Source: Candidatus Woesearchaeota archaeon (GTDB lineage: Archaea > Nanobdellota > Nanobdellia > Woesearchaeales > SM23-78). Taken from it: a stretch of DNA of 46,411 nt. Position numbers and translations under genes: made by a program. The notes beneath the pieces were generated by a model. It was not told the DNA's origin. It made no database searches and saw only the letters and a program-made list of their open reading frames with translations. The stretch is taken from NCBI GenBank assembly GCA_016930415.1, contig JAFGGS010000017.1, positions 1-46,411 of the forward strand, read 5' to 3'. Shown here piece by piece: positions 5,349-46,401 of this stretch; the stretch's first letter is position 1; the number at the start of each line of letters is the position of its first letter.

Positions 5349-6815
5349 TCATCCGCTCAAAGACCAGAGCTCGACTCCCTCGTCAGAGCCGGCCAGCCTA
5401 CTGAAGCGCTCGCTGTTCTTGAGAAGGAATAATAGCTCCTCCTCCCTGCCCTCCCAGAGGGTTTCTTTCATCTCAGAGGTGATCAGGAAGTATCTCGCGT
5501 GAGTCTCCTGCAGGATTGGATCCGCGTCTATTATCCTGGAAGAGTTTATCAGGCCTGCCTGGGCGGACAATCGCTGGCTAAAATCATCAGAATATTTAGT
5601 TGCCTCATCGAGCAAGGTGGGCTTGGCAGAGTATTCCTGGACCAGGAAGCCATACTCTGGAGGGGAGAGGACTACTCCGGAAGGCAGGCTTTTTAGCCGG
5701 GCGAGGATCGGCTCGAGCTCTTCTCCTGGCTGGGCTGATATGAGAGCGTCCGCTTGGTTCAGGGCTGAGAAGAGGAGTGCGCATGCAAGCAGGAGCAATG
5801 TTCCGGTCTTCACGATCTCCAGCTCCCACCTGCGGTAATACAGGAATTTTATGGCGACGACGCAGTAGACTATTATCAGCATGTTCGCATACACCCTCAT
5901 GATCGGGCTGAAGAACGAGAAGATTACCAGGAGCAGGGTCAGGAAGTGGTACATCCTTAAGTCCTTCATGAGCGACCAGATGATTATGAGGCCTGTGAAG
6001 AAGAGCATCAGTATGAAAAGCCCCAGGCCAAGGGATGCTCCGAATATCGAGAACGTCTCTTTGAGGTCCAGCGCGTGGATGTCGAAGCTTTGGAGGATTA
6101 CGTCCAGGAACGGCGTGAAGATGGCCAGAGGCACGACTAGCATGAGCGGTATGAGTGTCGCGGGGATCAGGCTCTTTAGGCTTCTTCGCTCGTATATGGA
6201 GAAGACCGCTATGAATACTAGTGTCATGATGAACGCGAAGAATGATGTGAGCGATAGGAGCGAGAGCAGCAGTATCGACGCCGCGAATGATAAGTTGCCC
6301 ATCTTCTTCCAAGGAGTCTCCCAGTATTTCCTTGAGAAATACGTGTTGAGCGCGAATAATGATAGGAAGACTACGAATCCAGTGGTGGAGAGGGAGGTGT
6401 ATAGCACGATGAACAAGGGAGTCATGGATAGCAGCATGACTGCGAAGCTCGCGTTCTTCTCTGGGAAGCCTAGCCTGACCAGCAGGGAGTGGAACAGGAT
6501 TGCCGAGGCGAGCCCCAAGAGTATCGGGAAGAGCACAGGGGTCTTGTCCTTGAGGATGTCTTTTGCCGCTGCAAGGAAGTAGTGGAAGGGATTTGGGTAG
6601 TAATAACGCTCCTGGAGCTTGTCCTCTGAGAACAATATGTCGTCGTGTATCTCGCCCGCGATTCTCAGGTTGTAGTATGACTCCCCGTTAGGGTATGGGA
6701 ATCCTGAGGTGTGAGCCCTTATCGAGAGGACTGCTGAGAGCACTAGGACTGCTAGGGTGATGCTCGTCAGGAAGTTGAGCGCGACTCCATGCCTCTTCTC
6801 AAGGTCTCGTCTCAT
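5349..6815 (-). CDS. polytopic GT-C/STT3-like membrane protein
   Basis: 488 aa with about 11 predicted membrane spans and a C-terminal soluble part of ~110 residues. The first external loop carries PNGESYYNLRIAGEI, and the C-terminal domain starts LARLKSLPSGVVLSPPEYG. This layout (acidic first loop, spans, terminal domain opening near a substrate-binding motif) is that of GT-C glycosyltransferases such as oligosaccharyltransferase STT3, but no canonical WWDYG is present. It is a divergent sister of the gene just upstream, whose stop overlaps this start by 4 nt (ATGA). The pair probably transfers or modifies lipid-linked sugars outside the cell. The exact reaction cannot be read from sequence. 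Confidence 0.7.
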   Translation of the reverse strand: MRRDLEKRHGVALNFLTSITLAVLVLSAVLSIRAHTSGFPYPNGESYYNLRIAGEIHDDILFSEDKLQERYYYPNPFHYFLAAAKDILKDKTPVLFPILLGLASAILFHSLLVRLGFPEKNASFAVMLLSMTPLFIVLYTSLSTTGFVVFLSLFALNTYFSRKYWETPWKKMGNLSFAASILLLSLLSLTSFFAFIMTLVFIAVFSIYERRSLKSLIPATLIPLMLVVPLAIFTPFLDVILQSFDIHALDLKETFSIFGASLGLGLFILMLFFTGLIIIWSLMKDLRMYHFLTLLLVIFSFFSPIMRVYANMLIIVYCVVAIKFLYYRRWELEIVKTGTLLLLACALLFSALNQADALISAQPGEELEPILARLKSLPSGVVLSPPEYGFLVQEYSAKPTLLDEATKYSDDFSQRLSAQAGLINSSRIIDADPILQETHARYFLITSEMKETLWEGREEELLFLLKNSERFSRLAGSDEGVELWSLSG

Positions 6816-8290
6816 ATCTTGCAGCCTCTCAGCTCGTATATAACTGCACCCTTATCATATACCTTCCTGATGCACGCTCCCTCCTCATAGAAGAGAGAGG
6901 TCATGTTCCTGGATTCCTGCACCCTCTTGGAGAGCAGGACGTAGTCTACGTCGTAAGCGTTGATCAGCCTTATGGCTTCTGACTTCAGGCGAAGAGAGTA
7001 CATCCTTGAAGTGTCCTCGTATACCTGGTTTGCGTTCTTCACGAAGAGGAAGTTCGAGTCAGCCACGTTCCTCCTCTCGGCAAGGTAGTTTAGCATGAAG
7101 CCTTCTTCGACTCCTGCAAGCACGACCGCGTCCTCGTTGGTGTTCTCCTTTAGCCAGGCCATGGCTTTCAGGTCCTCTGGGTGCTGGGGTTCGATGCGCG
7201 TGTACGTAAAGAACGGGCTCATGGTCGTGAGCAGGAAGAGCAAGACCACTATGAAGCCTAGTATTGTCGAGAGGCTTTCCATCTTGGTCTTGGCGATCCC
7301 TAGCTGGGTGACCCTCATGGTGTAGGCTGACAGTATTATCGTGTTGACGCTCAGGAATAAGAGGCCTGTGCTTAGCGGCACGAGCTTGAGCCAAAGGGCT
7401 AAGAATGACGATATGGCGAATCCCATGAAGAGGTGCGCTCCCCTGTTCTTCGCGTCAAACACGAGGTTGTAGATCGCGTATATGCCTAGCAGCAGCGGGA
7501 TGACCCCGACAGAGTATAGTATGCCTACGAAGCTGACGTCCTGGAAGTAAGTCGATAGGATCGCTGATGGCATGTTGCTCCATAGGACTCCTGCGCCGTG
7601 GAGGAAGAGGGCTTTCTTGTATAGGATTATGTTGAACCATATCGCCAGGAAGAATAAGAAGACTGTGAGCTCCACCTCTCTCTTTGTAGGCTTCTGCTTC
7701 TCCAGGAAGAGTATTATGAAGTAGAACGCTAGGCCGAACAGGAATATGAACACGTCCTGGGATGTGAGCAGCAACAGTATTGACGTGATCACTGCGAAGG
7801 ATGCTGACTTCTCCTCGTCAAGCCTTAGGAAGAAGTAGCTTAGCAGGAACACCAGAAGGAGGCTTAATGATTGGCTTGAGAAACTGTCGGTCGTGAAGTA
7901 CATCACAGGTATGAATCCTGTGAAGAGGGCTGCCACGAGCGGGATGGTCTTGTTCTTGGTCACTTGCCTTGACAGAAGGTAGGCTAGTATTGTTATTGAT
8001 GCGAACGAGAGGCTAGTTACCAGCTTTGCCGCGACTTCCACGCTGAATACCAAGGCGAAGAGCGCTATCACGTATTCGAAGAGTGGGGGGAAGAGATAGG
8101 TCCTGCCAGAGTAGCTTAAGGGGTCCTGGAAGTAGGGCGTTCCTGTATGCCTTATGGCGTCTGCCTGCCTGAGGGCGAAGTAGGCGTCGTAGCTGTAGGA
8201 GTCCAGCGGCAGGGTATACGCCAGCCTTATGCCCAGCACTAAGAGGAAGATTATCCCTAGCGCCACTTGCTCCCTTGTCAGCCTTGCCAT
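6812..8290 (-). CDS. polytopic GT-C/STT3-like membrane protein
   Basis: 492 aa, ~11-12 membrane spans. The first loop after TM1 reads SYSYDAYFALRQADAI and then FPPLFEY, typical of GT-C enzymes that use polyprenyl-phosphate sugars. The C-terminal domain begins LKAMAWLKENTNEDAVVLAG and continues with LAERRNVAD. This aligns with the STT3 stretch around WWDYG, but that motif is replaced by AGVEEG. It is therefore STT3-related without the usual acceptor-site signature. It is first in a two-gene operon with the 488-aa homologue. A minus-strand CTTTTTAAGC at 8313-8322 lies ~25 nt before the ATG. Confidence 0.72.
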   Translation of the reverse strand: MARLTREQVALGIIFLLVLGIRLAYTLPLDSYSYDAYFALRQADAIRHTGTPYFQDPLSYSGRTYLFPPLFEYVIALFALVFSVEVAAKLVTSLSFASITILAYLLSRQVTKNKTIPLVAALFTGFIPVMYFTTDSFSSQSLSLLLVFLLSYFFLRLDEEKSASFAVITSILLLLTSQDVFIFLFGLAFYFIILFLEKQKPTKREVELTVFLFFLAIWFNIILYKKALFLHGAGVLWSNMPSAILSTYFQDVSFVGILYSVGVIPLLLGIYAIYNLVFDAKNRGAHLFMGFAISSFLALWLKLVPLSTGLLFLSVNTIILSAYTMRVTQLGIAKTKMESLSTILGFIVVLLFLLTTMSPFFTYTRIEPQHPEDLKAMAWLKENTNEDAVVLAGVEEGFMLNYLAERRNVADSNFLFVKNANQVYEDTSRMYSLRLKSEAIRLINAYDVDYVLLSKRVQESRNMTSLFYEEGACIRKVYDKGAVIYELRGCKI

Positions 8291-35169: not shown

Positions 35170-35220
35170 ACGTGAACGTCGCAACTTTTTTAAAGAGCTT
35201 AAGTGTCCTCTCGATCTAGG

Positions 35221-36216
35221 ATGGTTGAGGATAAAGGCAAGGGTGAGAAGGCAGTCTCGGAGGACGTCGCTATCTGGACTGAGAAGTATCGTCCTAAGTC
35301 GTTTTCTGAGGTCAAGGGACAGGATGACATAGTTTCCAGGGTGAAGGCTTTTGTCGAGAAAAGGAATATGCCTCACATCCTATTCGCTGGCCCTGCCGGC
35401 GTCGGCAAGACCACTCTTAGCCTGGTAATCGCGAGGCAGCTGTTCGGTGATGATTGGAAGGAGAACTTCCTGGAGCTCAACGCGTCTGATGAACGAGGTA
35501 TCGACGTCGTGCGTGTCAAGGTCAAGGACTTCGCCCGTACGAGAGCCATCGACGGCGTCCCTTTCAAGATCATCTACATGGATGAGTGCGACGCGCTTAC
35601 AAAGGAGGCCCAGCAGGCTCTCAGGCGCACCATGGAGAATTACACCCAGACCTGCAGGTTCATCTTGTCGTGCAATTACAGCAGCAAGATCATCGACCCT
35701 ATCCAGTCGCGTTGCTCTATCTTCAGGTTCAAGCCTCTTCCTAAGGATGAGATCTTCAGGATCATCGACAGGATCGCCAAGGAAGAAGGCTTATCCGTCG
35801 ATGAGAAGGCTAAGGAGGCCTTGTTTATCATCAGCGAGGGTGATTGCAGGAGGCTTGAGAACATATTGCAAAGCTGCGCTGCCATGGAGCCTAAGATCAC
35901 TGAGAAGGTCGTCTATACTATCGCGAGCGCTGCCAGGCCTAAGGAGGTCAAGGACGTCCTTTCCTTATGCGTCAAGGGCGAGTTCATCAAGGCCAAGGAC
36001 AAGCTTCTTGATACCATGCTAAATCACGGCCTTGCAGGGCTTGACGTAATCAAGCAGGTCCAGGCAGAGATCTGGAATGTCGAGGGCATCGACAATCGCA
36101 AGAAGCTTGAGATGATCAAGGAGTGCGGAGAGGCAGAGTTTCGCATGATCGAGGGCAGCGATGAGTTCATCCAGCTCGAGGCAATGCTTGCCAAGTTCAT
36201 ATTGTTGGCGAAATAA
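35221..36216 (+). CDS. rfcS: replication factor C small subunit
   Basis: 331 aa from ATG 35221. An in-frame ATG at 35203 is possible, but the TATA-like TTTTTTTAAAG at 35184-35194 suggests 35221. Clamp-loader motifs are complete: WTEKYRPKSFSEVKGQ (RFC box II), Walker A GPAGVGKTT (~45-53), Walker B IIYMDECDAL, the SRC arginine-finger motif QSRCSIFRF, and GDCRRLENIL sensor 2. It loads PCNA with the large subunit (not in the window). No intein is present. Confidence 0.96.
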   Translation: MVEDKGKGEKAVSEDVAIWTEKYRPKSFSEVKGQDDIVSRVKAFVEKRNMPHILFAGPAGVGKTTLSLVIARQLFGDDWKENFLELNASDERGIDVVRVKVKDFARTRAIDGVPFKIIYMDECDALTKEAQQALRRTMENYTQTCRFILSCNYSSKIIDPIQSRCSIFRFKPLPKDEIFRIIDRIAKEEGLSVDEKAKEALFIISEGDCRRLENILQSCAAMEPKITEKVVYTIASAARPKEVKDVLSLCVKGEFIKAKDKLLDTMLNHGLAGLDVIKQVQAEIWNVEGIDNRKKLEMIKECGEAEFRMIEGSDEFIQLEAMLAKFILLAK

Positions 36217-36693: not shown

Positions 36694-37146
36694 TCAGTAT
36701 GTAAATCCTTGCGGCCTTATGTTGGGTATATATCTTTGGTGGTTGTTCATGTATCTTGGCACGAGCATGCTTGGGTTGGTGTAGTACGCGTGGTCTTGAG
36801 CGTTGTCTAGGTAGATATGGCTGTTGTATGTGGTCTTGCATCCTAAGAGCGCGTTGCAGCTGTAGCTTGGTATGTATCTTATATTGTTTGCGTATCTTGA
36901 GTTTCTGATCTGGGTGTTGAGGTAGAATGGCTGTCCTATTCGTCCGCTGGCCGCGACAGGGATGTAGTCCTTGCCTGTGTAGATTGAGTTGTATCTGTAG
37001 TCATATTGGCCGTGGCTGCTTGGGTTGTTGTACGCGTAGGTCTGGCCTGCGTAGCTTCCGTGGCCATTGTAGGCGTTGATTGGGAATGCGAGGAGCACGA
37101 GCACTAGGATTGTGGCTGTCAGGAGGGTCGTCTTTGCTCTGCTCAT
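36694..37146 (-). CDS. small secreted Tyr/Asn-rich protein
   Basis: 150 aa. Clear signal peptide (KTTLLTATILVLVLLAFPINA); the mature part is rich in Y, N, S and H (YNGHGSYAGQTYAYNNPSSHGQYDYRY) with a likely disulfide CNALLGCKTTYN. No repeat period was found. The composition resembles extracellular matrix or adhesive proteins. It lies 84 nt downstream of the similar 37231 gene and may share its transcript. Confidence 0.7.
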   Translation of the reverse strand: MSRAKTTLLTATILVLVLLAFPINAYNGHGSYAGQTYAYNNPSSHGQYDYRYNSIYTGKDYIPVAASGRIGQPFYLNTQIRNSRYANNIRYIPSYSCNALLGCKTTYNSHIYLDNAQDHAYYTNPSMLVPRYMNNHQRYIPNIRPQGFTY

Positions 37147-37230
37147 GTTCTGTCGCTCCGGTTTATTGTTTTTTCCAGACGTTAATAGTTTTTAACAGTT
37201 TTAAAAAAATTTTTTCTTGTTTTCGTAGGT

Positions 37231-37668
37231 TTACAGGGTCCCGAAGACCGCGTAGTTGGGTGCTTGGGTTGTTCCTGGGCTGCCGCCGTACACAAAGGTT
37301 CCTGGTCTCAAGTTGTAGTAGCCGCTGTTGCCGAACCATCCGCCGACTCTGGCCTGCGGGTAGTATCTGCTTGCGACGGTGTTTCTGGCTCCCGTATTCC
37401 AGACTGGGCCGCCGTACACTCCTGGTTTTAGCCCTATCAGGAATGCGCTGTTCTGCCCGTAGAATCCGCCCACTCTTACTGGTTGGCTTTCGTAGGGGTA
37501 GTTTATCGCGTTCATGCTTGGGTTTACAGGGTAGCTACCGTAGCTTGCGTATCCATAGGCTATGCCGCCTGCGTAGGGTGCATTGTTTGGCACGATTGCT
37601 GAGGCCATGCTTACGCATAGGAACGCAGTGATGGCGAGCATCGCCAAGATTAGTGCTTTGTTCTTCAT
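37231..37668 (-). CDS. small secreted Gly/Tyr-rich protein with two internal repeats
   Basis: 145 aa with signal peptide (~1-24, ALILAMLAITAFLCVSMASA). The mature part contains two related segments: VRVGGFYGQNSAFLIGLKPGVYGGP and ARVGGWFGNSGYYNLRPGTFVYGGSP (each quoted in part). A matching 'VGG(F/W)(Y/F)G...(L/N)(K/R)PG.(V/F)YGG' pattern recurs at ~26-residue spacing or more. AGGAGGAAC sits 8-9 nt before the ATG, and TATA-like minus-strand GATTTATAAAG lies at ~37733-37743. It may be a structural surface protein. Confidence 0.7.
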   Translation of the reverse strand: MKNKALILAMLAITAFLCVSMASAIVPNNAPYAGGIAYGYASYGSYPVNPSMNAINYPYESQPVRVGGFYGQNSAFLIGLKPGVYGGPVWNTGARNTVASRYYPQARVGGWFGNSGYYNLRPGTFVYGGSPGTTQAPNYAVFGTL

Positions 37669-37863: not shown

Positions 37864-38901
37864 TCAAGGATGTGCTTGTATAAGCAGAGGAACTTCCACG
37901 AACTCACCATACCTGTACCTCAGGGTGAACTTCAGCAGATCCTCATATATCCTCTGCTCTGTCGGCTTGGTGCGCTTTATGAAGCAGCTCAAAGGCAGGG
38001 GTGCATCAAGGTTGGTGCGCACGACTCCCTTCACGCCCCCCTCAGGAGTGGCCTCGTCAAGGCGCATGCATTTTATCTCATAAGTCCCCTTCTGTACCGG
38101 CTCGACGATCACCTCTAGCTTATACATGTTAGGGTTCATGTCGTTGAACTCGCAGGCGTCATAGTCGTCCTTTGGCTGATTCCTGTAGAAATATGCTCCG
38201 TTCCCGAAGTGCTCTATCACGAAGTTGATCTGGATGGTATCCTTGTTTATAGGAGCTTGCTGCACGCCTGTGATGTGCAGGGGCGCTCCGCTGTTGCCAT
38301 AAGGCCTGGGTCCTCTTAGCATGCAGATGCTCGCATCCTCTGCGCTCTCGACAAAATCTTTCTTCATGCAGAACTTCGCAGTGGCGTAGCTCTCGTAGTC
38401 GTAGCATAGCTCTCCTCTGAGCGTGAGGGAGGCTGTCGTTTCCAGATCGTGGATGTATGCAAGGTTGTCGAATGCGACATGAGTAATCTCACCCATGGTT
38501 ATCGACCCGTCGATGTTCCTCTTTGCGTTCTCAAGGCCGTCTTTTAGCCTCTGGGTCGCTGAGTCCAGCGTGAGACTGAAATCCTTCGGGTTGATGCCCA
38601 TGAGCCTTGCTATTATCAAGGGGTTGTCTGTCTTTGGGCCTATCTTTGCCTCGCCCAAGTTCTCGATGGCGAACACGACCGAGAATGGTGTGAGTGACGC
38701 GTCTTGTATCACGCTTGGAGGCGCCCCGTCGATGAGCTGGATCGCTAGTCCGCGGTCTCCACCTAAGAATCCTCCGATCTCCCCTCCGCCGACCTCAGGA
38801 TTGTTTGAGGAGCAGCTGGTGAAGAGAGAGCATGAGAAGAGTATGAGCGCAACTAAGATCAGCTTCACATAAGAATCATTCTGCCTCACCTGCTTTTTCA
38901 T
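37864..38901 (-). CDS. lipoprotein with shared two-domain architecture
   Basis: 345 aa from ATG 38901 (GTG 38910 in frame; AGGAAG precedes the ATG). Signal peptide and lipobox SLFTSCSS. Mature protein: GLAIQLIDGAPPSVIQDA...FAIENLGEAKIG, then LCYDYESYATAKFCMKKD, a third Cys before GAPLHITGVQQAP, then IQINFVIEHFGNG, and finally the paired-cysteine block EIKCMRLDE...LPLSCFIKRT ending in LRYRYGEFVEVPLLI. Its closest relative is the 39085 gene (335 aa). Likely an extracellular lipid-anchored protein of CARDB/Ig-like folds; ligand or partner not deducible. Minus-strand TATA-like TTTTTAAAC is at ~38968-38976. Confidence 0.85.
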   Translation of the reverse strand: MKKQVRQNDSYVKLILVALILFSCSLFTSCSSNNPEVGGGEIGGFLGGDRGLAIQLIDGAPPSVIQDASLTPFSVVFAIENLGEAKIGPKTDNPLIIARLMGINPKDFSLTLDSATQRLKDGLENAKRNIDGSITMGEITHVAFDNLAYIHDLETTASLTLRGELCYDYESYATAKFCMKKDFVESAEDASICMLRGPRPYGNSGAPLHITGVQQAPINKDTIQINFVIEHFGNGAYFYRNQPKDDYDACEFNDMNPNMYKLEVIVEPVQKGTYEIKCMRLDEATPEGGVKGVVRTNLDAPLPLSCFIKRTKPTEQRIYEDLLKFTLRYRYGEFVEVPLLIQAHP

Positions 38902-39084
38902 AAGGTCCACTTCCTGGCTGGGAAAAGATGCATCCTGGAACTGATGCTTCCAGACAGGTTTAGGAATTCGGGAGTTTAAAAATCTTTAGAAAAAAAAATC
39001 GCTGCGTGAGATGCAGAGATGATGGGGGATAAAAAGAGAATCTGGAAAGAATTTGGAAAGATCTTGAGAAGGTCAGAAAAATCC

Positions 39085-40092
39085 TTACTTCCCGTCGTCG
39101 TTCGTGACGTCCTGTATAATTATAGGCGTCTCTATGAACTGGCCATACCTGTATTTGAGCTTAATGTTGAGGAGGTCCTGGAAGACTCGTCCTGCGCTTC
39201 CCCTAGTCCTCTCGACAGTGCAGCTAATGGTCGTTGGAGCTCCCTGGTATAGCTTGACGTTCCCTATCCTGTTGCCATTGAAGCGAGCGCAGCTTATAGT
39301 CAGTCCTGAGTCTGAGAGCGGCTCGACCTCGACGTCGACCACGTACTTGTTCGTGTTCCTCACGCTGAAGTCGCATATTTCAGGCTCATTAGTCCCGGAG
39401 GGGTCTCTTCCGAAGAACTCACCGATGCCCACGTGCTCTATCACAAAGTTGATCTGGATCTTGTTCGCTGACATAGGGTTCTCTATCACGCTCGTGACTT
39501 GGACTGGCCCGCCTGAATTCTGAGGCGGTTTTGGTCCTGTGAGGCTGCATATGCTCGTGTCCTGTATGTTCTCAAGAACTTCGTCTTTTATGCAGATCTG
39601 AGCGGTCGCCAAGGTCTCATAATCATAGCAGATGTCTGCGCGGATCGTGAACTGGGTGTTGCCGTGGATGTTTGGCCTGTAGGTCAAGGGCTCGAAGTTG
39701 AAGTTCGTGATCTCTCCGGGAAAAATCGTGCCGTCGAAGTTCCTCCTGGCTCCTCTCAATGGCTGGGCAAGATACTGCTTTATGAATTCATCATTCACTC
39801 CGAACTGCTCAGGATTGATGCCTTCAAGTCTCACCATCACGAAAGGATTGTTGGTTCCTGGTCCCACGTCAGCTTCTCCCTGGTTCTCGATCGCGAGACC
39901 GACCCCGAAAGGATATAGTCCTGAATCATGGATCATGGGTGGCGGCATTCCCTCTATGAGGTAAGCGTTCAGCCCCACTGTCCCTCCGATGTATGACCTT
40001 GAAAGGTCGACTGTTCCGTCTCCTCCTGCGCAGCCAGATAAGAGTGCCAGCGCGCTCAATAGGATTATCACATTAATAAGTCTTCTTGACAT
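39085..40092 (-). CDS. lipoprotein, close paralogue of the 37864 gene
   Basis: 335 aa, signal peptide with lipobox LLSGCAG. It keeps the same order: GLNAYLIEGMPPPMIHDSGLYPFG, AIENQGEADVGPGTNNPF, ICYDYETLATAQICIKD with a third Cys in TSICSLTGPK, then GGPVQVTSVIENP, IQINFVIEHVGIGEFFG, and the terminal pair LTISCARFNG...TTISCTVERT with LKYRYGQFIETPIII. Similar to the 348-aa neighbour over its whole length; both probably arose by tandem duplication. No promoter stands out in the 84-nt upstream gap. Confidence 0.85.
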   Translation of the reverse strand: MSRRLINVIILLSALALLSGCAGGDGTVDLSRSYIGGTVGLNAYLIEGMPPPMIHDSGLYPFGVGLAIENQGEADVGPGTNNPFVMVRLEGINPEQFGVNDEFIKQYLAQPLRGARRNFDGTIFPGEITNFNFEPLTYRPNIHGNTQFTIRADICYDYETLATAQICIKDEVLENIQDTSICSLTGPKPPQNSGGPVQVTSVIENPMSANKIQINFVIEHVGIGEFFGRDPSGTNEPEICDFSVRNTNKYVVDVEVEPLSDSGLTISCARFNGNRIGNVKLYQGAPTTISCTVERTRGSAGRVFQDLLNIKLKYRYGQFIETPIIIQDVTNDDGK

Positions 40093-40176
40093 ATTCTCGC
40101 CTCCGAATGGTGTTCTTTTCGATTAAACACTCTCTTTTATTGCTGCGCCATTATTTTGGTGCAGACTATTGATCAA

Positions 40177-41484
40177 CTATATCGCTCTCTTGATCGTTAC
40201 TGACTTCTCAATAGTCTTCTCATAACCGTACCAGAGTTCCACGACTAGCGGAGCTTCGTAAGCTGATTTCAGGCCTGAGAATGGAAGCTCATACCTGCAA
40301 GTGACTACTCCCTCGTTCGTCTTGGGGTCCAGCCTTATGAAGTCTCCTGGCGTGCAGGTAAGCCTCTGGAGGTCTCCAGACACTCTGATGTCCCCTAGGA
40401 GGACTATGTTCAGGTCATTGTTGGTCACCCTTACGGGCGAGTATGGACTGCATATCTCAGCTGCGCCAGGCGCATACACTCTGCCGCCTCCAACATTCTT
40501 CACGTGGATCTGGAAAATCGATTCCCTGGGAGTGTTCTCCTGCTCGACGTAAGTCACGGCTACAGGAGCTCCTTGTCCGCTCGTGCCAGTATAAGTCTTT
40601 GGCACGCACACCTTCCTGCTCTCTGAGAAAGGCGAGGGGTCTATGCATACAGTAGGCGACGCATAAGTCGTGTACATGTAGCAGTTCGTTATCAGGAACT
40701 TCTGTTGGGTCTGGTCAAGCCCTGGCGGCCAGTTGACTATGTTGCCGTTGAAGGGGATGTATGTCGTCTCTCCGCCCGGGAAGAGGTAGTCGTCTGCGTC
40801 CAGGATGTATTCCTGACCCATGTTCTTCTCGAAGTTGACTATCTGCGAAAGTGATATGAATAGCCTTCCATGGTTTGCGTATTCCACGTCAATGTCCTTG
40901 TTGTAGAAGTTGTAGCTGAAAGAGTTGCCGCCGGCGTTCGCATCCCTTGTGAATCTCATGTCTCCGCAAAGCGCGCTTCCCAGCCTCCCGACGTCTATCT
41001 TGCTGCCTGCGCAGAGGAAGTTGTTTATGCTTAAGTCTATTGCATCCAGGTCACTGTCCATACCGAGGTATCCTCCATCGCATCTGAGCGTCAGGTCATA
41101 CTTGCCAGTTCCCATGTTGCCGAAGTTGAGCTGACAGGCCCTGCCGTTGCTGGACGGGTCCGGCCTTATGCCTTGTATCTCTATCATGTTAGGATCATAA
41201 CCTGAGAGGAATATGCCGCCTCTTGCCATGCTGCTTCCCTTATTCGCCACCTCGACCTCGACTATGAATTCGTTGTGCTCTGAGTTGCCGTAGTAATAGA
41301 GCTTGTTTAGAGCGGATGACTGGCTGAACCTGACATCTACGCCTTCATATCCCTGGTAGTACTTGTTGTCCTCGAAGTTCTTGTTCGCGCTCTTCGAGCC
41401 CTTGAAGTTGGAGCACGCTGAGAGCGTCAGTGCCATTATCAGAAAGACTGCCAGGAATGCCTTGCTCTTTGATATTCGGTTCAT
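40177..41484 (-). CDS. lipoprotein of the cluster family
   Basis: 435 aa, signal peptide with lipobox LTLSACSN. N-terminal block YYQGYEGVDVRFSQSSALNK and EVEVANKGSSMARGG (CARDB-like 'N-x-G'). Middle: insert of ~90 residues, then CYMYTTYASPTVCIDP and GAPVAVTYVEQENTPRES, IFQIHVKNVGGGRVY, then LQRLTCTPGD...GVVTCRYELP and C-terminal YGYEKTIEKSVTIKRAI. The same two-domain core as its neighbours but longer. TATA-like minus-strand CTTTATATACAAT is at ~41507-41519, ~25 nt before the ATG. Confidence 0.85.
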   Translation of the reverse strand: MNRISKSKAFLAVFLIMALTLSACSNFKGSKSANKNFEDNKYYQGYEGVDVRFSQSSALNKLYYYGNSEHNEFIVEVEVANKGSSMARGGIFLSGYDPNMIEIQGIRPDPSSNGRACQLNFGNMGTGKYDLTLRCDGGYLGMDSDLDAIDLSINNFLCAGSKIDVGRLGSALCGDMRFTRDANAGGNSFSYNFYNKDIDVEYANHGRLFISLSQIVNFEKNMGQEYILDADDYLFPGGETTYIPFNGNIVNWPPGLDQTQQKFLITNCYMYTTYASPTVCIDPSPFSESRKVCVPKTYTGTSGQGAPVAVTYVEQENTPRESIFQIHVKNVGGGRVYAPGAAEICSPYSPVRVTNNDLNIVLLGDIRVSGDLQRLTCTPGDFIRLDPKTNEGVVTCRYELPFSGLKSAYEAPLVVELWYGYEKTIEKSVTIKRAI

Positions 41485-41530
41485 GTTGATACCTCTTTTC
41501 TTATTCTATTGTATATAAAGCTTTTTATTG

Positions 41531-41548
41531 GATCGGATCGCGCCGATC
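41531..41548. repeat. GATCGG/CCGATC inverted repeat
   Basis: GATCGG (41531-41536), loop ATCGCG, CCGATC (41543-41548). It lies between the stop-side repeats of the 41612 gene and the TATA region of the 41484 gene. It may be part of a terminator or an operator. Confidence 0.5.
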
Positions 41549-41571
41549 GACGCGTGTGAACGCATAATAAG

Positions 41572-41610
41572 CAGGTTCAGTATACAGGTTCAATATACAG
41601 GTTCAATATA
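41572..41610. repeat. 3 x 13 bp tandem repeat at the 3' end of the cysteine-rich lipoprotein gene
   Basis: Units CAGGTTCAGTATA, CAGGTTCAATATA, CAGGTTCAATATA, one base from the stop codon at 41614-41612 (minus strand TGA). Different sequence but same unit length and copy number as the array at 32440-32478, which also abuts a stop codon. Confidence 0.88.
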
Positions 41611-41611
41611 T

Positions 41612-43177
41612 TCATGATGACGTCGCAGTGGTTCTGGCCGCTGCAGCAGCCGCGGCCGCCGCAGCTGTTTCCTGCTCGCACGCGACCTTGCAGGTCTCCT
41701 CGTCAGTGAAGGGCCTCTTCTCCTTTGAGCAGCACTGGCCTTCTTCAAGTATAGTGTAGCCGCTCTCGTCTGTCCCGCAGGCGCATTTCTTCTTCGTGAC
41801 AGAGCACGTCGAGCATTTAGGATAGCAATTGCCATCCCCTTCATACCTGATCTCTGTCGACTTGCACACGTCGGAGCAGCAATAGCTTGCCGGCGGGCAG
41901 TAGTTCGCCATGGGCAGGCATAATCCTTGCGGGTAGAGGGTCTCGCATGACTTGTAACTGCATTTGCATCCGAAGTCAGGGTTCCATTGTATCTGGAACG
42001 CTGCTGTCGATGGGTTGCAGGAGGCGTCCGTCGGGTTGGCTGCGCAGTAGTCACACTTGTTGATGCAATTCTCTTCTCCTTCCTTTCCCTCGCTTCCGCT
42101 CCCTGAAGCGATCTGGTACGGGAAACAGCCTTCGTTTTCCATGGATGACAAGTCACCGTACTGGTTTATGCGCTTTATCTCCATGTCCTTCTTGAGTGTG
42201 TTCATGTAGAAGTATGTCAGGTTCACTGTCAACGGCGCCTCGTAGTTCTGGCGCCAGGCAAGCGCGCGGTTTAGGTCTTCTCCTGAGACAGAGCACCTCA
42301 CGATTCCCTCATCCAGTGTGAGGCGGACCTCGTCAGGGGCGCAGTCGAGCTTTATGTTGTTCGAGAGCCAGGCCTCTATCTTCAGCCTGTTGAAGTCTTG
42401 CTTGTCCAGTTCCTGGATCATGCACGCCTTCTCCATCTCTAGGCCGCTATCTGAGGGGCTTAGGACTGTTCCTCCGCCTACATTCTCTATGTGTATCGTG
42501 AAGAACGGCCTGACCAGGCCGTTCCCTACGGGCTGGTTATCCACCTCCACGAGGGTCACTGCTACTGGCGCTCCTTGGTCTGAAAGCGAGATGTCCTGCT
42601 GTTTGCAGGCTTGGTTCCTGGCGTTGTCATCGTATATGTCGAAGTCTATGCATACTAGCTGCGACAATGTAGTGGAGTAGGGGTAGCATAGCGATGCGAA
42701 GAGTTGGGTCTCTGGTTTTGATCTCTGGCCAGTCACGTTCTTGGCCATCAGGTAGGGGAAGTGGAAGAAGAGCTTTGATCCTGTAGGGTAATATCTTGAC
42801 TTCCCGACCAGGTTCAGTCCTTTTATCACGACGCTGCTCGCTCCGAACAACATGTTCTCCTTTGCGCCTTCCTTGCTTGCAGACACGTAGAACGGGTCGT
42901 ATCCGAGGGTTAGTATCGCCTGGTCGTTCCCGACTATGCTATGGGCTCCCCTGTTCTCTATGAAGAGGCTCATGGCAAAGGATGATCCCTCGTAGACTTC
43001 GTCAAGGCTTTGCTCGTTCATGAAGTCCATAACCAATCCATCTGAGCCTTTGTAATAGTTCACGTCCTTGAACTTTGGGGCGTAGCTTCCGTCGCCGCAG
43101 CCTGACAGCAGGAGCAGCGCTGCCGCGAGGGCGATCATGATAACTGACAGTTCCCGATTGGCTTTTCCTCTGCTCAT
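41612..43177 (-). CDS. lipoprotein of the cluster family with cysteine-rich C-terminal domain
   Basis: 521 aa. Signal peptide with lipobox LLLSGCGD. The family core runs to about residue 345: YYKGSDGLVMDFMNEQSL, SLCYPYSTTLSQLVCID, QGAPVAVTLVEVDNQ, FFTIHIENVGGG, LDCAPDE...GIVRCSVSG, LTYFYMNTLKKDMEIKRI. Residues ~350-505 then carry about 22 cysteines (CINKCDYC, CSTCSVTKKKCACG, and others), consistent with a disulfide-rich module. The end is a 10-alanine run before RTTATSS. The start overlaps the stop of the polytopic gene (43174-43177, ATGA), indicating coupled translation. Confidence 0.85.
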   Translation of the reverse strand: MSRGKANRELSVIMIALAAALLLLSGCGDGSYAPKFKDVNYYKGSDGLVMDFMNEQSLDEVYEGSSFAMSLFIENRGAHSIVGNDQAILTLGYDPFYVSASKEGAKENMLFGASSVVIKGLNLVGKSRYYPTGSKLFFHFPYLMAKNVTGQRSKPETQLFASLCYPYSTTLSQLVCIDFDIYDDNARNQACKQQDISLSDQGAPVAVTLVEVDNQPVGNGLVRPFFTIHIENVGGGTVLSPSDSGLEMEKACMIQELDKQDFNRLKIEAWLSNNIKLDCAPDEVRLTLDEGIVRCSVSGEDLNRALAWRQNYEAPLTVNLTYFYMNTLKKDMEIKRINQYGDLSSMENEGCFPYQIASGSGSEGKEGEENCINKCDYCAANPTDASCNPSTAAFQIQWNPDFGCKCSYKSCETLYPQGLCLPMANYCPPASYCCSDVCKSTEIRYEGDGNCYPKCSTCSVTKKKCACGTDESGYTILEEGQCCSKEKRPFTDEETCKVACEQETAAAAAAAAAARTTATSS

Positions 43178-45129
43178 TCCCTAACCCTCACGCTGATAGT
43201 CTTCTCAAGGGTGTAATCATACGTCGCCTGGACCACGAAGGTCCGTTGGACTTTCTGTTGGCCTGCAAGGAACTCTTTTGGATTCTTTATATGCACCCTG
43301 CAAGTGACTGAGCTAAACCTTGACCTGACGTCCCCAATCTCTTCTTTTGAGAACTCGTAGAAGTCATATCCTTCCTTGTCCTTCTCTTTTGGCTCCTTTG
43401 TCTTCTCAGGATACCACCTGTCGCAGTTGAGCAGCTCGAAGTCTGAGGGCACCTGGAGGACGAACTTGTGGACGCCCTCTATCCTTCCTTCAGTCCAGAC
43501 GTTGTCCAGGGTTATCCCTATGATAGCGTCCCTGTTGTTATTGTCCACGTCCACGCCTACAGGCTGGTCTACCTGCGCGCCCATCCCTATCATTGCAGGG
43601 CCGTTGGTGTAGACCGCCTCAGGATACCTTGGCACGTCCAGCTCGTGGTTGACGTTCTTGCCTTGCAGCTCCATGGCCCTTTTGAGCTCGAGGTCCACGA
43701 AGGTGTACGTGACGTATGCCCAGGTCTCGAAGTTGAAAGCAGCGGTCACCCGCGACCTGTATGATCCTGGTTCGAGTCCTAAGAACGTGCATTGGAGCGT
43801 GTCGTGCTCTTCCCCGAGGAATTCGAAGACTATTGGATCCGCGTCTCCGTCCTCGCTCTTTGACTTGGTGTCGATGTAGCAGTGAGGGTGGACTCGTATA
43901 GGCTCGTTGAAGCTCTTGCCTCTCAGGTCCGCATATATTATTATAGGGTCTCCTTCGAAGAAGTAAGGGTCTGCTGTCCGCAGGTTATCCATGTATAATC
44001 CCACTGGCGCCTTCTCGTTCTCATCCACCGTTCCGGTGTAGTAGTTGAGGCCTGAGGCGTTGATCAGACGCTCTATAGTGACTGTCGGGTCAAGCCCCTT
44101 CCACATGTTCTTGAAGGTGTCCGCTGTCTTCTCGACGAGGAACTGCCCGACTGATGCGAATTCCAGGGTCTCTGGCCTTGCGCCGAGCGCCCCGAGGTTT
44201 CCGGTTCTTAGCTGGAACGAGAAGTAGAATAATGCGAGGAATATCAGGAAGAATATCCAGAAGTTGACGTACCTGTGCACCCACTTCTTTATCTCAGGAT
44301 CATCTATGTGCATGCCGATGTAGATCGGCCAGAAGGGTATTATCGCAAGGAAGAAAGATGCCCAGCTTGCAATGCTTGGCCCTCCTATGAAGCTTCCTTG
44401 CGGGAATATCCACATGTAGCCTGGGATCAGCACGTAGAAGAAGGCCATTGAAAAGAAGAATATCAGGCGCTTTAATTTTTCAGCTATCCCAATCTCTGCG
44501 AAACTAAGCAGACGCCCTCCCCGATGGTCTTTTAAGAAGATAAAAGCTCCTAGTGCAATGCTGAAATAGCCTATGATGGCCAATGGAAGGTATGCCCTAT
44601 TGAATTGGAGATAGAACGCGTCAAAGGCCTGCACTAGGATGGCCCACACGAACAGCATCTTCATCCAGGATTCTGAGTCGCCCTTAAAGCCTGCTCCGCC
44701 TACGGATTTACCGCCGCCTCCGCCGCCGCCAGCCGCGAGTCCTCCCATCAATCCTCCTGAGTTTGCCATGTTTCCAATTCTACTCGCATCCTCTGCAGCG
44801 TTGGCTGCCTTCTTCGCGGCATCAGCCGCGTCTGCCGCTTTCTTTGCGGCTTCTGCGTTCCTTCCAAGCTCCTTGTCAAGACTTTTCTTGACGTCTGCTG
44901 CGAGGTCAGCTCCTGCTGCAAGCGCGGCAGGGTCGCCAAGACCACCAGAAAGCAACACACCAGTCTTGATCGGGTGCTTGATTGCCTCTTTAACCGCGAC
45001 TCTAAGAGCATCTTTAGGATGCCCTTCCATCTCGCCGACAGTCTCCTGGATGCCTGAAACGACGCCCTTGGCTTTTTTCCCTTTGCGCACGAGCGAAAGC
45101 ACTTCTTCCGCTGTTTCTATCTTTGACAT
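43174..45129 (-). CDS. polytopic membrane protein with extracellular family domains
   Basis: 651 aa. Residues 1-75 are cytoplasmic and basic; an alanine-rich coiled-coil-like segment (~90-120, AEAAKKAADAADAAKKAANA) follows, then a glycine-rich linker (AAGGGGGGG). Five or more membrane spans occupy ~155-310. The extracellular part (~320-651) resembles the lipoproteins: NYYTGTVDENEKAPVGLYMD, AAFNFETWAYVTYTFVD, GAQVDQPVGVDVDNNN, then NCDRWYPEK...VTCRVHIKN and YDYTLEKTISVRV at the end. Some cysteines of the lipoprotein core are lost. It probably anchors or scaffolds the lipoproteins. Promoter: minus-strand CATAAAAAC at ~45162-45170. Confidence 0.8.
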   Translation of the reverse strand: MSKIETAEEVLSLVRKGKKAKGVVSGIQETVGEMEGHPKDALRVAVKEAIKHPIKTGVLLSGGLGDPAALAAGADLAADVKKSLDKELGRNAEAAKKAADAADAAKKAANAAEDASRIGNMANSGGLMGGLAAGGGGGGGKSVGGAGFKGDSESWMKMLFVWAILVQAFDAFYLQFNRAYLPLAIIGYFSIALGAFIFLKDHRGGRLLSFAEIGIAEKLKRLIFFFSMAFFYVLIPGYMWIFPQGSFIGGPSIASWASFFLAIIPFWPIYIGMHIDDPEIKKWVHRYVNFWIFFLIFLALFYFSFQLRTGNLGALGARPETLEFASVGQFLVEKTADTFKNMWKGLDPTVTIERLINASGLNYYTGTVDENEKAPVGLYMDNLRTADPYFFEGDPIIIYADLRGKSFNEPIRVHPHCYIDTKSKSEDGDADPIVFEFLGEEHDTLQCTFLGLEPGSYRSRVTAAFNFETWAYVTYTFVDLELKRAMELQGKNVNHELDVPRYPEAVYTNGPAMIGMGAQVDQPVGVDVDNNNRDAIIGITLDNVWTEGRIEGVHKFVLQVPSDFELLNCDRWYPEKTKEPKEKDKEGYDFYEFSKEEIGDVRSRFSSVTCRVHIKNPKEFLAGQQKVQRTFVVQATYDYTLEKTISVRVRE

Positions 45130-45175
45130 AACATGAATCTCTGAATATAGATTACCTTAAGTTTTTATGATCTCA

Positions 45176-45185
45176 ATTCGCGAAT
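45176..45185. promoter_or_regulatory. palindrome ATTCGCGAAT next to the TATA of the polytopic gene
   Basis: A 10-bp perfect palindrome located ~5 bp upstream of the minus-strand TATA-like element (45162-45170). This is the usual place for archaeal activators, and overlaps the BRE region. Confidence 0.4.
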
Positions 45186-45213
45186 CTGATCGCTCTGGCC
45201 AGGATCACTGCCG

Positions 45214-46401
45214 TCATATAACGTCGACCCGAAGCTCTACGACGTCGAGCGCCCCTGACAAGGGGATGATCTTCACTCCGTTTGAGCCTTCCAGGACTGA
45301 GTCCGGATCCAGTGGCGTCTGGTATACGTAGTCTGTGGTGTCAAAGTAGTTCTTGAAACCGTTGACTATTATCGTACCTCTTTTTACTGATGATGCGTCT
45401 GCGAATCTCATTGATAACAGCAACCCTCTCTGCCCGCGGTATATCGCGTCTATGAGCGCTGGCGGCGCGGTAAAGTAGTACACTGGCTGGCTCTCTTCTT
45501 TCATGAAGGTCGTGACTTTTGGAGCGTCTAGCAGAAATGATCCTGTGCTTGTAAGCGCGACTAGCGCGTTGTCGCCAGGCCTTAGGAAGTCTTTGCTCAG
45601 CTCTATCGTCGCTTTTATCCCGCAATCAGGGAAGCTAGTGTATACTGGCCTTCCGTTTAGAAGTATCTGGAGCTGACCTGTCTCTCTTGGCGGGCAGTCC
45701 GGCAGGAAGTCTAGCTGGGCTTTCTCGAGCTTCTCGAACTCGGTGTCTGCGATTGAGAAGTGCTGTTCGCTCCTGGCACCAGTGTAGTCTGTCACTTTCC
45801 CTGATATGATTACGCTCTCAAGTGAATACTCGTGTATCCTCCAGAAGAACACGCCTGGGCTTGATGTCGTTAGTACCAGGACGTTCCTTGGCTTGAGCTG
45901 TTCTTTAGGCAGGGTTATGGGCGGGGGGCTTCCCTCGTTTATCTCTCCCTCGTAGAGGTCGTATCCGTTCAAGGATATCTTGAGCCTGCCTTCATGGCTT
46001 ATCACGTTGAACGAGAGCTTGAGGTCTTCCATCGTGTTCTCGTCGTAGAAGAACTGCACCTCTGCTTCTTTCAGGCTGAAGGCGGAGTTCTTTATGTATA
46101 ACGAGTCGAGGTGCTTGAGCTCGTTGGCGTTGGTGACCGTGAACACTAGAAAGGACGGCATCTGGTGCTCTACCAGGTTGCTGCCCGAAGGGTATAATCG
46201 TCCTGGCGTTTTTGCCATGAGCACGGTCTTGACTCCGCTCACGCTGCCGCCTCCTCCGCCAGGATAATCTTCTCCAAGAAGAGCCGCCCTGTCTGCCAGG
46301 GGGATGAACAAGATGTAGAGTATGATCATTACTGCGATTATGATGATTACTATAGCGGCCATGCTACCGCTTTGAGCGCTCTTAGGCCTTAACCCTTTCA
46401 T
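45214..46401 (-). CDS. pilin-like anchored protein with three jelly-roll-like repeats
   Basis: 395 aa. The N-terminus MKGLRPKSAQSGSMAAIVII, then an uninterrupted hydrophobic helix to about residue 38 (IIAVMIILYILFIPL), resembles archaeal type IV pilin-like signal anchors, although the processing residue is uncertain. After a GGGGG linker (~46-50) come three related repeats: LKISLNGYDLYEGE...LPKEQLKPRNVLVL, LQILLNGRPVYTS...LSKDFLRPGDNALV, and GTIIVNGFKNYFD...LEGSNGVKIIPL. Each has the 'NG ... (L/I)..(L)+PG.N.(L/V)' pattern of galactose-binding-like beta domains. The upstream part of the operon is outside the window. Confidence 0.75.
   Translation of the reverse strand: MKGLRPKSAQSGSMAAIVIIIIAVMIILYILFIPLADRAALLGEDYPGGGGGSVSGVKTVLMAKTPGRLYPSGSNLVEHQMPSFLVFTVTNANELKHLDSLYIKNSAFSLKEAEVQFFYDENTMEDLKLSFNVISHEGRLKISLNGYDLYEGEINEGSPPPITLPKEQLKPRNVLVLTTSSPGVFFWRIHEYSLESVIISGKVTDYTGARSEQHFSIADTEFEKLEKAQLDFLPDCPPRETGQLQILLNGRPVYTSFPDCGIKATIELSKDFLRPGDNALVALTSTGSFLLDAPKVTTFMKEESQPVYYFTAPPALIDAIYRGQRGLLLSMRFADASSVKRGTIIVNGFKNYFDTTDYVYQTPLDPDSVLEGSNGVKIIPLSGALDVVELRVDVI

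Follow-up and report, generated by a model that had tools for sequence, protein, structure and literature searches.

A conserved, co-inherited set of five to six envelope genes is present in Woesearchaeales and can be followed across the phylum Nanobdellota, tiny archaea that live as symbionts. Its products are anchored by lipid or by transmembrane segments, and those of certain lineages end in wall-cutting tips. The window, the stretch of DNA analysed here, is a whole contig of 46,411 bases from a 1.3-Mb genome that has Woesearchaeota MAGs as its closest named relatives, and the genes of its cassette span positions 37864-46401 on the minus strand. They encode an anchored jelly-roll protein (UP), a polytopic membrane protein (POLY) and four homologous lipoproteins, transcribed in the order UP, POLY, LIP1, LIP2, LIP3, LIP3b (Table 1). 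The first-pass annotation of this DNA had described the genes as adjacent on one strand with at least one overlap, and all of them lie as described, POLY and LIP1 sharing four bases (43174-43177). The features that go beyond that reading are the C-terminal peptidoglycan hydrolases of relatives and the spread of the cassette across the phylum. Two small secreted Tyr/Gly-rich proteins encoded after the lipoproteins (36694-37668) are conserved within the genus only.

Table 1. Features of the cassette and its downstream neighbours in the window.
Feature	Coordinates	Strand	Description and basis
UP	45214..46401	-	N-terminal membrane anchor and tandem galactose-binding-like jelly-roll domains; AF2, Foldseek, phylum-wide conservation
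POLY	43174..45129	-	N-terminus in the cytoplasm, membrane segments, C-terminal half with two domains outside the cell; conserved in the order
POLY membrane region	44200..44664	-	aa 156-310; 4-5 hydrophobic segments by hydropathy
POLY ectodomain	43177..44067	-	aa 355-651; lipoprotein homologue by hhalign with controls
LIP1, position-1 paralogue	41612..43177	-	Lipobox LSGC, two beta-sandwich domains, Cys-rich tail; tree clade
LIP1 Cys-rich C-terminal module	41615..42172	-	186-aa tail; a similar module precedes SLT in family f2
LIP2, position-2 paralogue	40177..41484	-	Closest relatives are position-2 lipoproteins, 51-55% identity
LIP3, position-3 paralogue	39085..40092	-	AF2 pLDDT 91.7, two beta domains
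LIP3b	37864..38910	-	Genus-level duplicate of LIP3, 41% identical
Small secreted Tyr/Gly-rich protein	37231..37668	-	Downstream of lipoproteins; phmmer 1.7e-30 to locus L003
Second small secreted Tyr-rich protein	36694..37146	-	phmmer 3.6e-17 to locus L005
RFC small subunit	35203..36216	+	Pfam; usual 3' neighbour, outside the cassette

A lipobox was found in all four of the proteins annotated as lipoproteins, and the motifs that had been proposed to unite them, CY.Y...C[IM] and G[AG]P[VL].[VI]T.V, are present in four of four and in none of 2529 non-family ORFs of the same loci. Iterated profiles place all four in one family (E <= about 1e-67). Exactly three lipoproteins are encoded by 71 of the 85 operons that are complete at the 3' end; the four operons with a fourth lipoprotein (the window, L003, L004 and L005) all belong to the window's genus, and the lipoprotein tree identifies LIP3b as a genus-specific duplicate of the LIP3 type. 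In this tree of 226 lipoproteins the operon positions form pure clades (69 of 70 for position 1, 64 of 70 for position 2 and 70 of 70 for position 3), the deep branches of positions 1 and 2 having moderate support, and all but one of 210 lipoproteins (209) have their nearest relative at their own operon position. Judged by their sequences, the three lipoproteins are ancient paralogues held in a fixed order and the fourth is a recent duplicate. The long retention of distinct paralogues in a fixed order implies a hetero-oligomer, the members of which would bind one another.

The extracellular part of POLY had been read as sharing the architecture of the lipoproteins, and the homology stands by profile-profile comparison, but both sequence motifs are absent from POLY. 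Alignment by hhalign of the second domain of the POLY ectodomain with the second domain of the lipoproteins gave 92% probability and E=6e-7, and an end-to-end alignment of the POLY ectodomain with a lipoprotein gave 67% and E=6.5e-6, compared to E-values of about 0.02 or worse for reversed controls and ten column shuffles. Trimmed profiles with these controls were used because the comparison of whole-protein LIP and POLY profiles was noisy and uninformative. An early match of a LIP1 profile to the POLY of locus L041 (2e-22) was discarded as evidence of homology because SLT forms the tail of that POLY and an SLT-bearing LIP1 had been absorbed into the profile.

Comparison of the core cassette proteins with Pfam, NCBIfam and PDB sequences gave no convincing match, only sporadic weak Pfam matches, which agrees with the earlier statement that no described system is recognisable. 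CARDB of Pfam is matched by one of 84 lipoprotein family members (E=0.0013), too little for an assignment. The AF2 model of LIP3 consists of an N-terminal helix followed by the beta domains, and no entry among PDB structures matches the whole protein. The AF2 model of UP (pLDDT 91.8) consists of an anchor helix and then the tandem jelly-rolls, and its resemblance, by Foldseek against the PDB, to the sugar-binding jelly-rolls of beta-galactosidase, to reelin and to BcsB does not go beyond the fold. The CARDB/Ig-like and galactose-binding jelly-roll folds are of the same fold class as the lipoproteins and UP, respectively, but the Pfam matches are weak and scattered and there is no global structural match. 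A structure search of UP against viral proteins returned just generic jelly-rolls.

Searching with one sequence detected POLY in 39 of the 59 relatives, and a POLY profile detected it in 248 of the 353 genomes of the order. A second search with a UP profile detected UP in 41 of 52 genomes of the order that were mostly POLY-negative, so that the true share of genomes with the cassette is above the POLY count; the cassette is near-core in Woesearchaeales. The order UP-POLY-LIP-LIP-LIP is nearly constant, usually between the genes of Pelota and the RFC small subunit. At 97 of the 110 loci UP is immediately 5' of POLY (at four more a small ORF lies in between), and POLY overlaps the gene that follows it at 76 of 104. 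The POLY of family f62 is divergent and matches weakly, but it still lies next to UP and at least one lipoprotein. Across the phylum, the jelly-roll gene was found in 273 of 371 sampled genomes. Loci of other orders encode UP, a POLY that crosses the membrane once or twice and a pair of lipoproteins, of which one clearly belongs to the position-3 type; more divergent loci keep the gene order, their POLY having up to five segments. Pelota served to locate the cassette in two closed genomes that the UP profile had failed to detect, and in both a reduced version lies beside that gene: the genome of Nanopusillus acidilobi (G358; contig of 605,887 bases) encodes UP, a POLY fragment of 92 aa and a single recognisable lipoprotein, and a single contig of 668,961 bp (G370), presumably Nanobdella aerobiophila, encodes UP, POLY and two lipoproteins. 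Homology in these two genomes is based on synteny, on UP at E about 4e-7 and on pairwise matches to an intermediate genome. The profile search for co-located copies that had been suggested at the outset therefore found the family co-occurring across genomes, not a set of proteins assignable to unrelated known families.

A C-terminal extension of at least 80 residues is present on POLY in 61 of 110 loci. By Pfam, these tails contain SLT in 26 cases (E<=0.01), glucosaminidase in three, and Amidase_2, M23 and NlpC/P60 in one each; since the single NlpC/P60 tail also reads as SLT, the number of POLY proteins with a peptidoglycan hydrolase is counted as at least 31 of 110. The least frequent of these assignments are strong (Amidase_2 in L042, 1e-32; M23 in L051, 3e-17), as is one glucosaminidase (L139, 2e-17), and the SLT tail of L041 scores 38 bits against a Pfam cut-off of 21. 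In three loci of family f2, SLT (E<=0.01) is carried instead by LIP1, where it follows a Cys-rich module of the type seen in the LIP1 of the window and is accompanied in one locus by a DUF2272 domain. Overall, roughly one in three of the Woesearchaeales compared has a cassette with a peptidoglycan hydrolase on POLY or LIP1. Reading by eye indicates that the catalytic Glu and a GLMQ-like motif are kept in about 23 SLT tails, which are predicted to be GH23/SLT hydrolases, and that the catalytic motif is altered or weak in six SLT-like tails of a single family (L081, L083, L088, L096, L097, L107), which perhaps bind instead of cutting. The POLY tails of L039, L051, L056 and L084 have in common a Pfam-less domain that resembles a divergent lysozyme-like domain, and the tail of POLY at L123:6134-7189 resembles beta/gamma-crystallin, an assignment made by reading, one tail having matched that family.

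No hydrolase was found in the cassette of the window, where POLY stops at the ectodomain and the LIP1 tail has no Pfam match, and the fusion is mostly missing from the window's genus, family f62 and other orders. On a weakly supported POLY tree the presence of a hydrolase changes about 17 times, which indicates that the tips have been gained, lost and exchanged and that they are an accessory and not the core function of the cassette. The window's own genome has SLT genes outside the cassette. On contig C12 a secreted SLT protein with a SPOR-like N-terminal half (L152:4542-5999) adjoins a lysozyme-like protein (6119-6856), and on contig C17 a membrane-anchored SLT protein (L153:4720-5640) lies amid N-terminally anchored Cys-containing proteins, a cluster that is possibly a separate surface apparatus. 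In another genome of the genus (G002), a protein of 1444 aa (L156:4613-8947), read as an NlpC/P60-like part plus SLT, is encoded among small anchored proteins.

The proposed function of the cassette, which has about an even chance of being correct, is that of a hetero-oligomeric envelope complex by which Nanobdellota make contact with other cells and which is armed with hydrolases in several lineages of Woesearchaeales. The complex would sit at the outside of the cytoplasmic membrane, UP and POLY being anchored by transmembrane segments and the two or three homologous lipoproteins by lipid. As the lipoproteins and the POLY ectodomain are each a tandem pair of beta-sandwiches, their homology and fixed order make a pseudo-symmetric ring or patch possible. 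The complex would mediate contact with another cell, and in the hydrolase-bearing lineages the enzyme at the C-terminal tip of POLY or LIP1 would loosen, where the cells touch, the wall of a bacterium that serves as host or prey, in analogy to the muralytic parts of conjugation machines and phage tails. In the window's lineage, the complex would have no fused hydrolase; SLT proteins are encoded elsewhere in the genome. Assembly into one complex, the role in contact and the bacterial target are suggested by comparison of sequences. Hydrolases of several unrelated folds, fused at one place on POLY, speak for this proposal. The reduction of POLY and the lipoproteins in N. acidilobi is a counterpoint to it, as are the POLY proteins that have no tail or other tails, the lineages that mostly lack the fusion and the six degenerate SLT tails.

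A general envelope scaffold, which would tether or organise the S-layer or envelope and to which accessory domains including hydrolases would have been fused owing to its exposure at the surface, is somewhat unlikely but agrees with much of the evidence: the cassette is near-core and vertically inherited next to housekeeping genes, many tails are not hydrolases (23 POLY proteins have other tails, such as fn3, PKD, Ig and crystallin) and many lineages have no tail (46 of the 110 POLY proteins). However, hydrolases are the largest class of tails with known activity, and they recur on two homologous subunits, which would not be expected of a neutral scaffold.

A more specific form of the contact complex concerns the Nanobdellota attachment organelle. 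Where the symbiont touches its host, cryo-tomography shows this organelle as a cone built of repeated densities at the outside of the cytoplasmic membrane, and it has been proposed to occur throughout the phylum (PMC11420986, PMC11104419). The cassette is of the same phylum, and its products, predicted to sit on the same side of the membrane, are candidates; as to organisms in which the organelle was imaged, UP, POLY and two lipoproteins are encoded by G370, presumably N. aerobiophila. That it encodes the structural subunits of the organelle and that these form the cone, with ancestral versions meeting archaeal hosts and Woesearchaeales having added interchangeable wall-cutting tips for bacterial hosts or prey, is a doubtful proposition; membrane-anchored proteins of repeated beta-sandwiches match the description of the cone, but other proteins would too.

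The first-pass annotation had proposed a surface machine or fibre made from duplicated modules, with a pilin-like jelly-roll protein upstream. A surface system of duplicated, co-inherited modules with a jelly-roll partner is upheld, but no assembly genes for a fibre were found in the cassette. A type IV-pilus-like or other surface fibre, in which UP would be a pilin-like subunit and the lipoproteins its cap or tether, would account for the jelly-roll head of UP and for the class III signal-like motif ([KR][GA]Q-type) that 61 of the 94 UP proteins have before their hydrophobic segment. It is improbable, given that the mapped cassette neighbourhoods contain no recognised gene for an assembly ATPase, a platform protein or a prepilin peptidase and that the anchor helix of UP is short and followed by a kink. 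The AF2 model agrees with the jelly-roll of the original label; the term pilin-like is uncertain, the motif being missing from the UP of the window.

A translocation channel is a very improbable alternative. POLY would then form a VirB6-like pore for secretion or uptake, the lipoproteins would make up its outer components and the hydrolase would take the role of VirB1. The combination of a polytopic protein, lipoproteins and a muralytic domain does resemble a simplified type IV secretion system, and the muralytic parts VirB1 and PrgK of such systems in Patescibacteria (PMC12102498) are likewise wall-cutting enzymes on a membrane complex at cell contacts, but no sequence homology to them was found, POLY has no sequence match to VirB6 or to any solved protein (Pfam, PDB), and the cassette neighbourhoods contain Pelota, RFC-S, PheRS and regulators and no VirB4-type ATPase. 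The number of membrane segments also counts against a pore, because it is not fixed across orders: the polytopic form belongs to Woesearchaeales, most of the loci examined in other orders have one or two segments, and some deep-branching loci have up to five. Matches of POLY to presenilin and GPCRs were dismissed as noise due to membrane composition. At L006:8039-9937, the membrane region of POLY is seemingly swapped for a DUF4112-like segment, an assignment made by reading, one member having matched DUF4112.

An autolytic function, for which the tethering of the hydrolases to the producer's own membrane could be cited, was rejected as extremely improbable, since 33 of the 35 genomes tested have no PBP transpeptidase and the Mur-ligase-type matches, at most one per genome, are FolC-like (FolC was found in all four genomes examined). 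No peptidoglycan synthesis set was seen in the genomes tested, which are MAGs and partly incomplete. Thus, to judge from these absences, these archaea are unlikely to have a wall of their own, and peptidoglycan outside the producer is the natural substrate. PBP1A-like transpeptidase/transglycosylase genes occur at L204:25-2403 (G312) and L205:16-2556 (G130), both from Woesearchaeales MAGs with one Mur-ligase-type match each (FolC in the case of G130); each could be a lateral gene, a weapon or contamination.

The contact complex with exchangeable hydrolases can be compared to archaeal enzymes that have been described before. Proteins with a murein transglycosylase domain (fam00969) were reported in Woesearchaeota and Pacearchaeota with the suggestion of attachment to bacteria (Castelle et al. 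2021, PMC8204110), and this view is shared by Vigneron et al. (2022) and others, with further reports in PMC9723730 and PMC10936187. Large extracellular proteins of these archaea carry the SLT domains in question, for which the binding or cutting of bacterial walls has been proposed, but, as compared by description, the domain there is part of single proteins, whereas here it is an interchangeable tip on a predicted multi-gene membrane complex. Archaeal peptidoglycan hydrolases, prominent in Nanoarchaeota, can kill bacteria (Strock et al. 2025, PMC12352652); these too are archaeal and have no target in the producer, but they are modular with peptidoglycan-binding domains, whereas the hydrolases of the cassette are membrane-tethered and operon-encoded. 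No description of a Woesearchaeales lipoprotein complex was found in the open-licence papers searched. What is new is the putative complex that displays the hydrolases, with its parts, their paralogy and order, its reach and its exchangeable tips; the SLT proteins themselves had already been reported.

The cassette probably serves these archaea for contact with other microbes and, in certain lineages, for breaching them. It provides named genes to test for two questions, namely which proteins make up the attachment organelle and which partners most Woesearchaeota have. The predicted envelope complex is phylum-wide and is probably present in a cultivable host-symbiont system, and the hydrolase tips point to the lineages that are likely to meet walled bacteria. 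If the proposed function is true, the cassette would be a device for contact and wall opening that has no described homologue.
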